Positions 4,994 to 8,880 of a stretch of DNA of 64,000 bases are shown here, piece by piece. Each line of letters opens with the position of its first letter. Position 1 is the first letter of the stretch. A program made the translations under genes and the position numbers. The notes beneath the pieces were generated by a model. That model was not told where the DNA came from, searched no databases, and worked only from the letters and a program-made list of their open reading frames with translations. The DNA is from Virgisporangium aliadipatigenens. Lineage in GTDB: Bacteria > Actinomycetota > Actinomycetes > Mycobacteriales > Micromonosporaceae. The stretch lies in the NCBI RefSeq assembly GCF_016863615.1, contig NZ_BOPF01000015.1, positions 62,001 through 126,000 of the forward strand, read 5' to 3'.

Positions 4994-5965
4994 ATGCGAG
5001 TCATGGTTGCGTTGGCGGTGTCGGGGATTCTGCTCGTGGCGCCGGCCGGTCCGGTGTCGGCGCACGTCGTGCCGGCCGACGTGGCGGCCTGGTCGGCGCA
5101 GCGCTACGCCGGCCGCGCCCTGCCCGACCCGCGGCACGCCGACCCCGCCGCCGTGGCGGAGTTCTTCGACGCGGCCGGGCCGGTCGAGTCGGCGTACCTG
5201 GCGCGCAGCTATCCCCGGCTGGTCAACGGGCTCGACGGCGCGCCGCTCGCGCTGCGGCTCGCGGCCGGCGACGGCGTGCGCCTGCTCGACGACCCGCGCG
5301 GCGACGGGCGCGTCGCGGAGGTCGTGGGCGATCCGCTGACCGCCCGGCGGATCGTGGTGCTGGTGCCCGGCGTCGACACCGACGCGGCGAACTTCCACAG
5401 TGGACTCGGCGGCGTGCTCCGCCGCGCACCGGCGTGGCAGGCGAAGCAGGTGCACGACGCGGCGGGCCCCGGCGTCGCGGTGGTGGCCTGGCTCGGCTAC
5501 GACCCGCCGGAGGGACTCGGCATCGCCTCGGCGCGCACCGAACGGGCCCGCGACGGGGCCGCCGCACTCGTGCGCTTCCTGCGCGGGCTCGCCGTGCAAC
5601 GGCCCACGGCGACGTTCGTCCTCATTGGACACTCGTACGGCTCGGCGGTGCTCGGCTACGCGGCGCCGGCCCTGCCCGCGGCGGTCACCGACCTGGTGGC
5701 GCTGGGCAGCCCGGGCATGGGCGTGCGGGACGCCGCGGCGCTGCGCACCACCGCGCGGGTGTGGGCCGGCCGGGCCCCGAACGACTGGACCCGCTTCGTG
5801 CCGGGCGTGCGGGTGCTCGGGTTCGGGCACGGCGCCAAGCCGACCGGGGCGGGGTTCGGCTCCCGGGAGGTGCCGTGCGGCGACGTCGACGGGCACGACG
5901 GCTACTTCGTGCCGGGCACCTCGTCGCTGGCCGCGCTCGCCGGCATCGCGCGCGACATGAGCTGA
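4994..5965 (+). CDS. Secreted alpha/beta hydrolase (DUF1023-like)
   Basis: A 323-residue protein with a Sec-type signal peptide: Arg near the start, a hydrophobic core, and a likely cleavage after GPVSA near residue 22. The mature part is an alpha/beta hydrolase with the nucleophile elbow GHSYGS, typical of the DUF1023 family, and a candidate catalytic His in VDGHDGYF near the C-terminus. LVPGVDTD probably forms the oxyanion region. The ATG at 4994 follows CTGGAG. Substrate is unknown. The final 64 bases overlap, in opposite orientation, the 3' end of the MNIO partner gene. A copy of the repeated palindrome lies in the reading frame near base 5400. Confidence 0.85.
   Translation: MRVMVALAVSGILLVAPAGPVSAHVVPADVAAWSAQRYAGRALPDPRHADPAAVAEFFDAAGPVESAYLARSYPRLVNGLDGAPLALRLAAGDGVRLLDDPRGDGRVAEVVGDPLTARRIVVLVPGVDTDAANFHSGLGGVLRRAPAWQAKQVHDAAGPGVAVVAWLGYDPPEGLGIASARTERARDGAAALVRFLRGLAVQRPTATFVLIGHSYGSAVLGYAAPALPAAVTDLVALGSPGMGVRDAAALRTTARVWAGRAPNDWTRFVPGVRVLGFGHGAKPTGAGFGSREVPCGDVDGHDGYFVPGTSSLAALAGIARDMS
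5393..5405. repeat. Palindromic 13-mer copy 1 (12 of 13)
   Basis: TTCCACAGTGGAC inside the hydrolase gene; differs from the full palindrome only at the first base. In frame it reads Phe-His-Ser-Gly, one of only two copies within a gene that does not encode Ser-Thr-Val. Confidence 0.75.
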
Positions 5966-6396
5966 ACGCGCAGCCGCCCCAACGGCGTGCGTACGAACGA
6001 CGGCGTCCACCGGCGATGGCGCGGCGGCCGGATGCCGTCGTAGTAGAAGTGCCCCTCGCGCTCGGCCAGCTCCGCCACGGCCGCTTCGGGGAGCCGCCGG
6101 GTGACGGCCAGTTCGCGGGCGAGGTCGAACCCGTCGCGCAGCGAACCGCGCGGCGGCCGGCCGGCGGCCCAACCCCGGAAGATCGTCCTCCACTGTGGAC
6201 CGAGCGACGCGGCGAGCGCGGGCCAGGTGTGGGCCACCTCGCCGGCGCGCTTGTTGAGCAGGGCCGAACGGGCGATCGCCACCCGCCGCTCGTCGAAGCC
6301 GTCGGGGGTGGGGGCGCCGGCCACGAGGGCGGCGGCGAGCGCGGTCTGCTTGGCGGCCAGGCGCTGCCGCGCGTCGCCCAGAGCGTTGCCGCTCAT
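5902..6396 (-). CDS. MNIO (DUF692) partner protein, SCO6045_C-like
   Basis: A 164-residue basic protein beginning MSGNALGDARQRLAAKQ. Its ATG overlaps the TGA of the DUF692 gene (ATGA), so the two are coupled. It contains a helical first half and a conserved-looking motif LNKRAGEVAHTWPAL followed by FRGWAAGRPP, resembling a domain that in other actinobacteria is fused to or encoded beside DUF692 enzymes. By analogy with MbnC, TglI and similar helpers, I infer that it binds the precursor and presents it to the oxygenase. The 3' 64 bases are shared with the oppositely oriented hydrolase gene. Confidence 0.75.
   Translation of the reverse strand: MSGNALGDARQRLAAKQTALAAALVAGAPTPDGFDERRVAIARSALLNKRAGEVAHTWPALAASLGPQWRTIFRGWAAGRPPRGSLRDGFDLARELAVTRRLPEAAVAELAEREGHFYYDGIRPPRHRRWTPSFVRTPLGRLRVQLMSRAMPASAASDEVPGTK
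6188..6200. repeat. Palindromic 13-mer copy 2 (12 of 13)
   Basis: CTCCACTGTGGAC within the MNIO partner gene, where the minus strand reads Gly-Pro-Gln-Trp. Confidence 0.75.
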
Positions 6397-7220
6397 GCGG
6401 GGGTCGTGATGCGCGGGTAGCCGCTGGCCGCCGCTATCGCGTCGAGTTCGGCGCGGAGTTCCGACGGCTGCGGGTAGTCGCCGTCGCGCTCCAGCATCAG
6501 GGCGGGTGGGCGGCGCCTCGCGCACAGCTCGCGGATGAGGTCGAGCACGGCCGGCGGGGTCGGATCCGTGTGCGTGTCGTGGTAGACGCCGTCCGCCTCC
6601 TCGCCGCCGGCGACGTGCACGTAGGCGACGCGTTCGAGGGGGAGGGCGTCGAGCAGGGCGGTCGGGTCCTCGCCGCGGTTGACCGCGTTGGCGTAGACGT
6701 TGGCGATGTCGAGCAGCAGCGGTGCGCCGGTGCGTTCGACGATCTCGGTGAGGAACTGCGCCTCGGTCAGTTCGTCGTCCGGCCAGTCGAAGAGCGCCGC
6801 GATCGGCTCCAGGGCGATGGGCACCGGCAGGTCGGCCTGCACGCGTCGGACGTTGTCCACGATGACGTCGACCGTCTCCCGGGTGCGCGGCACGGGTGTG
6901 AGGTGCCCGACCTCCAGGCCGCCCGAACGCACGTAGGCGATGTGGTCGCTCACCAGCGGTGCCCGGAGCGCCTCGGCCACCTCCGCCATGTGCCGGACGC
7001 GGTGCGTGGCAACGGGTTCGGCCCCGCCCAGGGAGAGGCGCACACCGTGCGGGATGACCACGGTTCCCCGTTCGACAAGGGAAAGAAGGGCGGGGGGAGG
7101 ATCAGCGGGACGGACCGACTCGGCGATCACCTCGGTGAACGGGAGACTCGGCAGGGCGGCGAGGACGTCGGCGATCTCGGGCCGCCAACCCACGCCGACC
7201 CCGATCTCGGCCGGCAGCAC
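6393..7220 (-). CDS. DUF692 / multinuclear non-heme iron oxygenase (MNIO)
   Basis: A 275-residue TIM-barrel-type protein starting VLPAEIGVGVGWRPE. It carries the DUF692 family landmarks: VIPHGVRLSLGG, VSDHIAY, IALEPIAALF, LLLDIANVYANAVNRGED, VAYVHVAGGEE and DTHTDPTP, which supply the His, Asp, Glu and Asn ligands that hold two or three iron atoms in MbnB, TglH and related enzymes. Characterised members oxidatively modify Cys or other residues of ribosomal peptides. The GTG start lies one base after the TGA of the gene encoding the Cys/Gly-rich tail protein, and its own stop overlaps the partner gene. The Cys-rich tail upstream is the obvious candidate substrate; this is inference. Confidence 0.9.
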   Translation of the reverse strand: MLPAEIGVGVGWRPEIADVLAALPSLPFTEVIAESVRPADPPPALLSLVERGTVVIPHGVRLSLGGAEPVATHRVRHMAEVAEALRAPLVSDHIAYVRSGGLEVGHLTPVPRTRETVDVIVDNVRRVQADLPVPIALEPIAALFDWPDDELTEAQFLTEIVERTGAPLLLDIANVYANAVNRGEDPTALLDALPLERVAYVHVAGGEEADGVYHDTHTDPTPPAVLDLIRELCARRRPPALMLERDGDYPQPSELRAELDAIAAASGYPRITTPA

Positions 7221-7221
7221 G

Positions 7222-8121
7222 TCAGCCCCCACAGCCGCCACCCCCTCCGCCGCCGCAGCTACTACCCCCGCCGCAGCTGCTGCCGCCGCTGCAACCGCTG
7301 CCGGAGTCGCCGCCGGACGACCCGGAGGAACCGCCCAGCCGGCCCAGATCCGTCTCGGCCGCGAGGGCCGGATCCGCCGACCACAGCGCGGCGGCGCCGA
7401 AGAGCCCGACGGCGAGCGCGGCACCACCGGCACCGAACGCGGAGGCCGCCGAGGCGTGGTCGCGCGGGTCGAGCCGGACGTGCGCGGCCCGGGTGCGCGC
7501 CATGGCCGACTGCCCGGCCCGCGAACGCGGCGACACGACAAGCGTCGGCAGGATCAGCACGCCCACCACGACGGTCAGCATGACGACGAACCCCACCGGC
7601 TTACCCGCGTCGATACCGGCGACGATCCGCGCGATCCCCAGCGCCAGCACCGCGAACATCGGCAGCGCGGCCAGCCGCATCGCGTTGCGCCGGCGCGGCG
7701 ACAGCAGCCAGCCGTGGCGCACCAGCGTGTCGCGCAGGTGCTGCAGCGCCGGCGCGATGGAACGCTCCTTGACCAGGGCGAGCGCGCGCATCGGGCGCTG
7801 CTGCACGGCCTGGTACACGGCCCAGGTGAGCTCGCTCGGGGCGGGCGGCGGCGAACCGATCACCGTGATGGTGCCGGACTCGACGCTGATCGCGTTGGCG
7901 GCCCGCAGCCCGGCGAGGCTCACGGCCACGGCCTGGAGGGCGTTGCCGTTGACGTAGCCGAGTTCCTCCGGGCCGGGCTCCCACCGGGGGTCGACGCGGC
8001 CCTGGGCCAGCGCGCGCCGGAGGAGGGCGGTGATCAGCAGGGCGGCGACCGCCAGCACCGCGAAGAGCCCGAGGAACGTGGGGCCGGCGATTCCCCAGGT
8101 GTCGGCAGTGATGGTGCGCAT
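7222..8121 (-). CDS. TIGR04222-type membrane protein with Gly/Cys-rich tail
   Basis: A 299-residue protein. An N-terminal membrane helix (about 12-33) is followed by a cytoplasmic stretch (about 35-165) with EELGYVNGNALQAVAV, then two or three helices between about 165 and 250. The last 40 residues are almost only Gly, Ser and Cys, with four Cys spaced C-x5-C-x5-C-x7-C-G-G. This matches my recollection of the TIGR04222 family, whose low-complexity tails vary greatly and whose genes sit beside DUF692. I infer that the tail is a membrane-anchored precursor modified by the MNIO. ATG at 8121 is preferred; a GTG at 8157 would add 12 residues. Downstream genes are coupled with 1-base spacing and a 4-base overlap. 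Confidence 0.82.
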   Translation of the reverse strand: MRTITADTWGIAGPTFLGLFAVLAVAALLITALLRRALAQGRVDPRWEPGPEELGYVNGNALQAVAVSLAGLRAANAISVESGTITVIGSPPPAPSELTWAVYQAVQQRPMRALALVKERSIAPALQHLRDTLVRHGWLLSPRRRNAMRLAALPMFAVLALGIARIVAGIDAGKPVGFVVMLTVVVGVLILPTLVVSPRSRAGQSAMARTRAAHVRLDPRDHASAASAFGAGGAALAVGLFGAAALWSADPALAAETDLGRLGGSSGSSGGDSGSGCSGGSSCGGGSSCGGGGGGGCGG

Positions 8122-8176
8122 GGCTGCATTGTGCGGCCTGCGGGCCAGTTGCGGCACGTGCCTGCGGCCGCTTCGC

Positions 8177-8247
8177 CGATCTTGCAGTTGTGGTGGGGAC
8201 AGTGCGGGGCATTACCGGACACGCCGGGCGCCACAACTGCAAGATCG
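8177..8247. terminator. 17-bp inverted repeat between TetR and TIGR04222 genes
   Basis: Perfect arms CGATCTTGCAGTTGTGG (8177-8193) and its complement (8231-8247) with a 37-base loop. It lies downstream of the minus-strand TetR gene and upstream of the next minus-strand gene, so it may end TetR transcription. There is no U-tract, and the long loop is unusual for an intrinsic terminator. Confidence 0.6.
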
Positions 8248-8268
8248 ACGGTTGCCGGCCGGCGAGGG

Positions 8269-8844
8269 CTAGCGCTGGCGGCGGACGACCGACTCGGCCA
8301 GGTCGAGCACCGGCTCCAGGTCCACCGCCGGGCGGCCCATCGCCAGATGGAGGACGAGGCCGTCGTAGGCCAGTTCGAGGAACTGGGCCAGCACCTGCAC
8401 GGGCACGTCGGCGCGCAGCACGCCCGCGTCCCGCTGCCGGATGAGCCGGTCGCGGGTGGCGGCGGCGATCGCCTCCGAACGCGCGGCCCACCGCTTGGTG
8501 AAGTCCGGGTCGGTGCGCAGCCGCCGGGAGACCTCGAGCTGCGTGCCGAGCCAGCCCGCCTGGTCCGGCTCGTCGGCGCGGGCCAGCAGGTCGCGCATGA
8601 CCTGCACGAGCCCGTGCTCGGCGACGGTGGCGACCATCGCGGCGGCGTCGTCCTCGGCCACGGCGAGGAAGAGGGACTCCTTGTCCCGGAAGTGATGGAA
8701 GATCGCACCGCGGGACAGGCCGGTCTCTTCTTCCAGGCGGCGCACCGTGGCACCCTCGTATCCGTGCCGGGCGAAGCAGGCGCGCGCCCCGGCGAGAATC
8801 TGCCGGCGCCGGGCGTCGAGCTGATCCTGACTGACTCGGGGCAT
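8269..8844 (-). CDS. acnR: TetR-family repressor, probable aconitase regulator AcnR
   Basis: A 191-residue TetR protein: the N-terminal helix-turn-helix contains RRRQILAGARACFARHGYEGATVRRL and SRGAIFHHFRDKESLF (each broken by the fold), followed by a helical ligand domain. ATG at 8844 is chosen over a TTG at 8859 because the operator covers the TTG. Its own promoter carries a 28-base near-perfect palindrome, and a close relative of that site lies upstream of acnA at 21606-21631. In Corynebacterium the TetR protein AcnR represses acn, so I infer autoregulation plus control of aconitase. Unlike Corynebacterium, the gene is not adjacent to acn but 10 kb away. Confidence 0.85.
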   Translation of the reverse strand: MPRVSQDQLDARRRQILAGARACFARHGYEGATVRRLEEETGLSRGAIFHHFRDKESLFLAVAEDDAAAMVATVAEHGLVQVMRDLLARADEPDQAGWLGTQLEVSRRLRTDPDFTKRWAARSEAIAAATRDRLIRQRDAGVLRADVPVQVLAQFLELAYDGLVLHLAMGRPAVDLEPVLDLAESVVRRQR

Positions 8845-8852
8845 CCCACGAT

Positions 8853-8880
8853 TATGCAAGCCGTACGTACGGATTGCATA
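8853..8880. promoter_or_regulatory. Probable AcnR operator (autoregulatory)
   Basis: Palindrome TATGCAA-g-CCGTAC / GTACGG-a-TTGCATA, symmetric except for one base pair, placed 9 bases upstream of the TetR ATG. It shares 20 of 26 positions with the site upstream of acnA. Confidence 0.75.

Follow-up and report, generated by a model that had tools for sequence, protein, structure and literature searches.

A subset of the TIGR04222 membrane proteins has been proposed to be substrates of MNIO (DUF692) enzymes acting with PME-type 2 partners (Antoine et al. 2025, PMC12452194). There, the tail is read as periplasmic from AlphaFold models, including that of a 300-residue Micromonospora protein, and PME-type 2 genes are predicted in at least 10% of TIGR04222 clusters. 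FonB, an MNIO that forms thiooxazoles, is described as acting on EGKCG repeats with a preference for a small residue after the Cys, and MNIO-partner pairs as turning the Cys of such repeats into 5-thiooxazoles, with copper sequestration discussed (PMC12668002). Lipid-anchored MNIO products, among them the lipoproteins DybA and NedA, are reported to have been made in E. coli (PMC12636315, a preprint), and a further paper refers to a Pseudonocardia cluster with a TIGR04222 peptide. Here we analyze a three-gene locus in a 64,000-nucleotide stretch of DNA from Virgisporangium aliadipatigenens (the window; contig NZ_BOPF01000015.1, positions 62,001 to 126,000), which belongs to a 10.3-Mb genome. 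The locus encodes a TIGR04222 membrane protein with a Cys-containing tail, an MNIO, and a small helper protein. Our reading, which is tentative and close to evenly balanced, is that the three genes yield one membrane-anchored, MNIO-modified protein whose tail would lie in the cytosol, be oxidized at Cys, and bind a soft metal. That the tail of a membrane protein serves as an MNIO substrate is an idea already proposed; the rival topology is what we add.

The three genes are on the minus strand and are tightly packed. The TIGR04222 protein (299 residues; 7222-8121) matched the entire NCBIfam TIGR04222 profile (1-229 of 229) with 141.1 bits (cut-off 43). Its only Cys are residues 277, 283, 289, and 297, all in a Gly/Ser-rich C-terminal tail that terminates in GCGG (residues 260-299; 7225-7344); sequence and relatives make this tail the candidate modification site. 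The MNIO (275 residues; 6393-7220; MbnB/TglH/ChrH family) matched PF05114 with 269.1 bits (cut-off 25), and its GTG start at 7220 is one base past the stop codon of the TIGR04222 gene. The helper (164 residues; 5902-6396; ATG start at 6396) overlaps the MNIO gene by 4 bases, has a weak match to DUF2063, and is probably a short MNIO partner similar to those of PME-type 2. The preliminary description of this DNA had reported a polytopic membrane protein with a 40-residue tail holding four Cys, followed after one base by an MNIO that overlaps a helper-like protein by 4 bases. The sequence and the TIGR04222 match bear out the first part, and the coordinates bear out the spacings.

The locus resembles several described systems and differs from each. 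It shares with the TIGR04222-MNIO(-PME-type 2) clusters of PMC12452194 the protein family, the Gly/Ser/Cys C terminus, the MNIO, a short DUF2063-like partner, and examples in Micromonospora. It differs from the clusters as presented there in the side of the membrane (periplasmic tail there, cytosolic tail predicted here) and in the frequency of the partner (at least 10% there, 86 of 88 MNIO matches in the stretches fetched here). Bufferins and oxazolins/fontiphorins (captophorins) are similar in that BufB and HvfB were the best NCBIfam matches of the MNIO, in that Cys is followed by Gly or a small residue, and in having a partner protein. However, the precursors of bufferins and oxazolins are described as carrying Sec or lipoprotein signals and as having DUF2063 partners (PMC12452194), whereas here the protein is a 299-residue integral membrane protein, the MNIO scored far below the equivalog cut-offs of BufB (184.9 bits, cut-off 310) and HvfB (153 bits, cut-off 360), and the helper was below that of DUF2063. 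DybA and NedA, like the product proposed here, are membrane-tethered, but through a lipid (PMC12636315) and not through transmembrane helices.

The Cys tail was conserved in relatives with an adjacent MNIO. We fetched 140 stretches from the bacterial family (Micromonosporaceae), 139 of them around TIGR04222 matches and including most of the above-cut-off places among the matches listed, and counted with a TIGR04222 profile grown from the window protein. Together with the window, these gave 153 TIGR04222 frames, of which the 148 complete ones were counted; four end at contig ends (L052, L107, L131, L140) and L129 is a 552-residue read-through. Also outside the tail counts are L160 and L176, which the profile did not match, and L177, which has no TIGR04222 gene. 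Of the counted proteins, 86 had an MNIO no more than 250 bases away, 15 were additional copies from those stretches, and 47 came from stretches with no same-strand MNIO. The MNIO was downstream of the TIGR04222 gene in all 86 adjacent pairs. Conservation of the tail Cys beside this MNIO had been singled out in the preliminary description as a check on the idea, and the outcome was favorable: at least two Cys were present in the last 45 residues of 84 of the 86 MNIO-adjacent proteins, compared to 13/15 further copies and 16/47 copies without MNIO. The terminus -GCGG was found in 76/86, 9/15, and 6/47 of the three groups, respectively, and the mean number of Cys outside the last 45 residues was 0.21, 0.60, and 1.60. 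The residue after the 336 tail Cys was Gly in 285 cases and Ser in 47, in a G/S-C-G/S context, and the commonest spacing between Cys was 6. Because the proteins share ancestry, these counts do not represent independent events.

Some loci have more than one TIGR04222 gene. In L055, L057, L082, L109, L119, L126, L130, and others, at least two same-strand copies with differing tails precede one MNIO, a pattern that would fit duplication of the tail carrier. The genome that holds the window has a second TIGR04222 protein (L180, G000:C18:168652-169095) with one tail Cys and no MNIO in its 10.4-kb stretch.

TIGR04222 proteins and MNIOs largely occurred in the same genomes. Of 150 family genomes, 112 contained a TIGR04222 match (above the cut-off in 102) and 98 a PF05114 match. 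With a TIGR04222 threshold of E < 1e-12, chosen after the match list had been viewed, 97 genomes had both, one had the MNIO alone, five had TIGR04222 alone, and 47 had neither. TIGR04222 without MNIO was seen in 14 genomes; a repeat search of nine of them gave 14 TIGR04222 matches. We examined six of these matches, five above the cut-off and one below (a sixth above-cut-off frame has stops), and none of the six copies, which come from six MNIO-less genomes, had two tail Cys. We also used a set of named loci, the best 80 of 560 matches found with the MNIO alignment, from genomes that partly overlap the family set. A TIGR04222 gene was upstream in 71 of the 80, the other nine starting at the MNIO at a contig end, and 69 of these 71 proteins had at least two tail Cys; the exceptions were Virgisporangium aurantiacum (one Cys) and L230, in which the frame runs 1017 residues past the expected end. 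The named loci include Actinomadura, Allonocardiopsis, Nakamurella, and a Streptosporangiaceae bacterium. Across the phylum, 11 of 296 genomes had TIGR04222 above the cut-off and 15 had the MNIO; the triad was present with Cys tails in L297 and L298, from another family of the same order, and with one tail Cys in L300, from elsewhere in the phylum. A scan of genome contigs with the single window protein as query confirmed no relative. Based on the recurrence of the gene order and the tail across related genomes, we conclude that the gene triad is more than chance.

The MNIO has the conserved residues of its family. H58, H93, E138, D171, N174, H202, D215, H217, and E244 were the same in all 12 family sequences aligned, and we take these His, Glu, Asp, and Asn residues to be ligands of a multi-iron site. 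Sequence matches to structures were 8hci_D, 3bww_A, and MbnB (7dz9_A), and the metal-site residues align to these. The genome that holds the window encodes a second, distant MNIO-domain protein (522 residues; L177:4242-5810, G000:C7; PF05114, 102 bits); our profiles matched neither a TIGR04222 protein nor a helper in that 10.6-kb stretch.

The helper is a plausible MNIO partner, judged from gene position, sequence, and a structure model. The two MNIO matches without an adjacent helper in the fetched stretches were at a contig end (L141) and the distant second MNIO (L177), and no fetched stretch had a helper without an MNIO; the stretches had been chosen for TIGR04222, and free helpers elsewhere were not sought. 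Among the named loci, 79/80 had the helper, the missing one (L248) ending at a contig end. In another genus of the same class, the MNIO and the helper are one fused frame in all seven fetched loci (L290-L296; for example L290:2436-3731), and within the family they are fused at one locus (L160). These fusions support a partnership between the two proteins. The DUF2063 match of the window helper (E 0.0029, 18.3 bits) is below the cut-off of 27.2, and the PME-type 1 signature is absent. As expected for PME-type 2, the gene follows that of the MNIO; the model is helical and the DUF2063 match below threshold. The AlphaFold model (pLDDT 90.1) has five helices and a C-terminal beta part. A Foldseek search with it gave a best E of 1.8. 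On structural re-alignment (VIA-align), the top chain was MbnC of the MbnABC complex (7dz9_C; Z 4.5, root-mean-square deviation [rmsd] 4.1, 100 residues), a modest likeness in keeping with the sub-threshold DUF2063 match. The chains 3dee and TglI (8hi7) were absent from the 15 re-aligned rows, which is no evidence against a likeness to them.

The predicted topology of the TIGR04222 protein has the tail in the cytosol. The AlphaFold model (mean pLDDT 87.4, pTM 0.79) has long helices at residues 13-39, 153-171, and 177-195, which we took as transmembrane (TM1-3), and residues 267-297 are disordered. The region of residues 222-262, which may be read as a fourth transmembrane helix from hydropathy, is modeled as broken short helices (230-241, 243-249, and 251-257). 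In 82 proteins, the median of the hydropathy measure KD19 was 1.35 for this region and 2.41, 2.13, and 2.54 for TM1-3, and a value of 1.6 was reached by 16/82 proteins in this region versus 98-99% for TM1-3. The mean number of Lys and Arg (K+R) was 0.37 before TM1, 2.39 after TM1, 3.35 before TM2, 0.85 in the hairpin loop, and 5.38 after TM3, a charge distribution that would place both the central domain and the segment following TM3 inside. From the model and these values, we favor three transmembrane helices over four, the window protein being borderline.

The model also pointed to a possible relative. Foldseek against the PDB gave 36 matches, none significant (best E 0.96) and none to GOLPH3 or Vps74. 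When the top 179 Foldseek chains were re-aligned with VIA-align, GOLPH3 (9qpq_B) ranked first (Z 7.9, rmsd 5.0, 146 residues, model residues 44-261), and Vps74 chains 4tu3_A and 2zih_B ranked seventh and eighth (both Z 6.7 and 144 residues; rmsd 5.2 and 5.0; reaching residues 262 and 264), although a Z under 8 can reflect a common arrangement. The GOLPH3 and Vps74 alignments were the longest of the top 17 rows. In sequence, the Pfam family GPP34, to which GOLPH3 and Vps74 belong, was the sole Pfam match of the window protein up to E 1 (E 0.0021, 18.6 bits, cut-off 29.1), and the DUF2282 signature of bufferin precursors was absent; three other TIGR04222 proteins scanned and that of L290 had no GPP34 match at E 0.1. 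Profile-profile alignment against GPP34 proteins from relatives (22 sequences) gave P 1.8e-4 (probability 48.9%), compared to 0.31 and 0.41 for two control pairs. P was 1.4e-5 for the N-terminal part alone (residues 40-150) and 2.2e-5 (157 columns) for both parts with the hairpin omitted; by itself, the C-terminal part aligned in another register with P 0.06. Searched against PDB sequences, the TIGR04222 protein matched only two designed 'Tet4 variant' chains, through its Gly-rich tail (E 0.28 and 0.4). The model and the sequence comparisons together suggest a GPP34-like cytosolic domain (about residues 44-264) interrupted by a membrane hairpin, and such a domain would therefore leave the tail in the cytosol. 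GOLPH3 and Vps74 are soluble peripheral adaptors that are not known to have a hairpin or a Cys tail; they share the predicted fold with residues about 44-264, but sequence similarity is weak. Apart from the TIGR04222 proteins, eight GPP34 family matches are found in the genome that holds the window.

Based on these predictions and on other MNIO systems, we propose the following mechanism. The first helix of the TIGR04222 protein would be oriented N-out, followed by the cytosolic GOLPH3-like domain that the two-helix membrane hairpin interrupts, and the disordered Gly/Ser/Cys tail would exit this domain on the cytosolic side. By analogy, the MNIO and the helper would dock on the tail and oxidize the Cys flanked by Gly or Ser (G/S-C-G/S); judging from other MNIO products, the result would most likely be 5-thiooxazole or oxazolone/thioamide groups. 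Once modified, the tail would stay attached and bind a soft metal, with copper as the likeliest candidate, at the surface of the membrane; the same analogies make soft-metal binding by a modified, membrane-held tail the likeliest role. In its fullest form, the proposal is that a GOLPH3-fold protein permanently keeps an MNIO-built, metal-chelating Cys tail at the cytosolic face, forming an intracellular metallophore tethered to the membrane, and that this is a chromosomal trait kept widely across the Micromonosporaceae; we regard this fuller version as unlikely. If it were true, the product would not be an exported natural product, and the enzyme would reach the tail directly, without a race against export. 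If the tail is modified on the membrane protein, the scope of MNIO chemistry would widen from small peptides and lipopeptides to proteins that reside in the membrane, across a large actinomycete group. A GPP34-like fold, if confirmed, would provide a structural relative for the TIGR04222 family; neither GPP34 nor GOLPH3 is named in the main text of PMC12452194, and searches combining GPP34 with actinobacteria or with bacteria, transmembrane, or DUF692 gave no link to TIGR04222 by title or abstract among the matches listed.

The side of the membrane decides whether the product acts inside or outside the cell, and the points that weigh against a cytosolic tail are those that favor the reading of Antoine et al., in which the MNIO substrate reaches the outside of the cytoplasm through a further transmembrane helix, as with bufferins. 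That reading comes with its own AlphaFold model of the Micromonospora protein, and bufferins and MNIO lipoproteins are described as exported (PMC12452194, PMC12636315). Furthermore, the window protein has a KD19 of 1.77 in region 222-262, which ranks sixth among the 82, and a less strict scan called a last transmembrane helix there in 61 of 86 adjacent proteins. The GPP34 matches, for their part, are below cut-off or of middling Z, and the sequence signal is limited to the N-terminal half. Nevertheless, most relatives fall short of a KD19 of 1.6 in this region, K+R peaks directly after TM3, and instead of one long helix the model shows two short ones, of 12 and 7 residues. The GOLPH3 and Vps74 alignments also cover the region up to residues 261-264 (judged by end points only), and Cys-less paralogues have Arg and Pro within it. 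We consider a periplasmic tail possible but on the unlikely side. Another reading has the tail released as a small modified peptide by signal peptidase I, cutting after the conserved DPxFA motif. The window protein has DPALA-AE, an AxA-like site behind a hydrophobic stretch, and an exporter-type ABC transporter gene (PF00664, PF00005) is on the opposite strand about 3.5 kb downstream in 55 of 87 MNIO loci (for example, L118:8399-10348). Cleavage by signal peptidase I follows a rule for position -3. Release was largely rejected because several relatives have E, D, R, or Q at this position; in addition, the DPxFA motif is kept in Cys-less paralogues and no ABC transporter gene was found in the first 20 kb of the window, the part searched. 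We regard release as very improbable. The recurring ABC gene may reflect synteny alone or may be a hint of export.

A different objection concerns the substrate: the tail might bind metal or form disulfides without being modified, and the MNIO might act on another protein or residue, some MNIOs being described as acting on Asp, Asn, or Phe (PMC12452194). In the genus with the MNIO-helper fusion, a TIGR04222 gene is near the fusion in five loci, and in four of these the protein has no Cys tail, which argues against a simple rule of one enzyme and one tail. The remaining one, L290, has a long Cys-rich tail on the TIGR04222 protein that follows the fusion. L293 has, between the fusion and a Cys-less TIGR04222 protein, a protein that by eye resembles the DUF4142 protein of L290. 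V. aurantiacum, of the same genus as the window, has the MNIO and the helper (L178, L181) with its single tail Cys, and the 16 Cys-tailed copies without an adjacent MNIO all come from genomes that have an MNIO, as matched by hand; among these copies, L093 lies at the end of its contig and could in fact be adjacent to one. No metal gene was recognized among the recurring neighbors that were identified. We also asked how often tail and enzyme changed together, using a FastTree tree of 167 TIGR04222 proteins with the tails removed. MNIO adjacency changed 10 times and the Cys state 8 times, but adjacency differed in only five supported independent pairs (10 on all branches), and in those pairs the tail Cys changed in the same direction in 0.5, in the opposite direction in 1.0, and not at all in 3.5. 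The correlation between Cys and MNIO is thus strong in counts and weak in independent events, with few events at the level of clades, and with five pairs the phylogenetic test is uninformative as evidence. Opposed to an unmodified tail is the finding that MNIO-adjacent TIGR04222 proteins have nearly no other Cys and that Cys tails mark the MNIO-adjacent copies. We judge an unmodified tail improbable, and continue to favor the modified, cytosolic one.

Several neighboring genes recurred with the triad. A TetR-type regulator (8269-8859; PF00440, E 2.1e-16) is upstream of the operon in the window, also on the minus strand, and is possibly its regulator. Homologues of this gene were present in 81 of 87 MNIO loci versus 4 of 54 other stretches; those of a HAD gene in 78/87 versus 3/54; and those of a RIO-kinase gene in 58/87 versus 4/54. 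This neighborhood suggests a stable chromosomal trait. Upstream of the operon there is also an inverted repeat (8174-8250) with 20-base arms and 37 bases between them. We rejected it as an operator of the operon because its 16-base core, GATCTTGCAGTTGTGG, has 108 genomic copies (58 forward, 50 reverse), against 0 for the reversed control. The copies occur very often in opposite pairs 53 bases apart, and the inverted repeat is a dispersed palindromic element.

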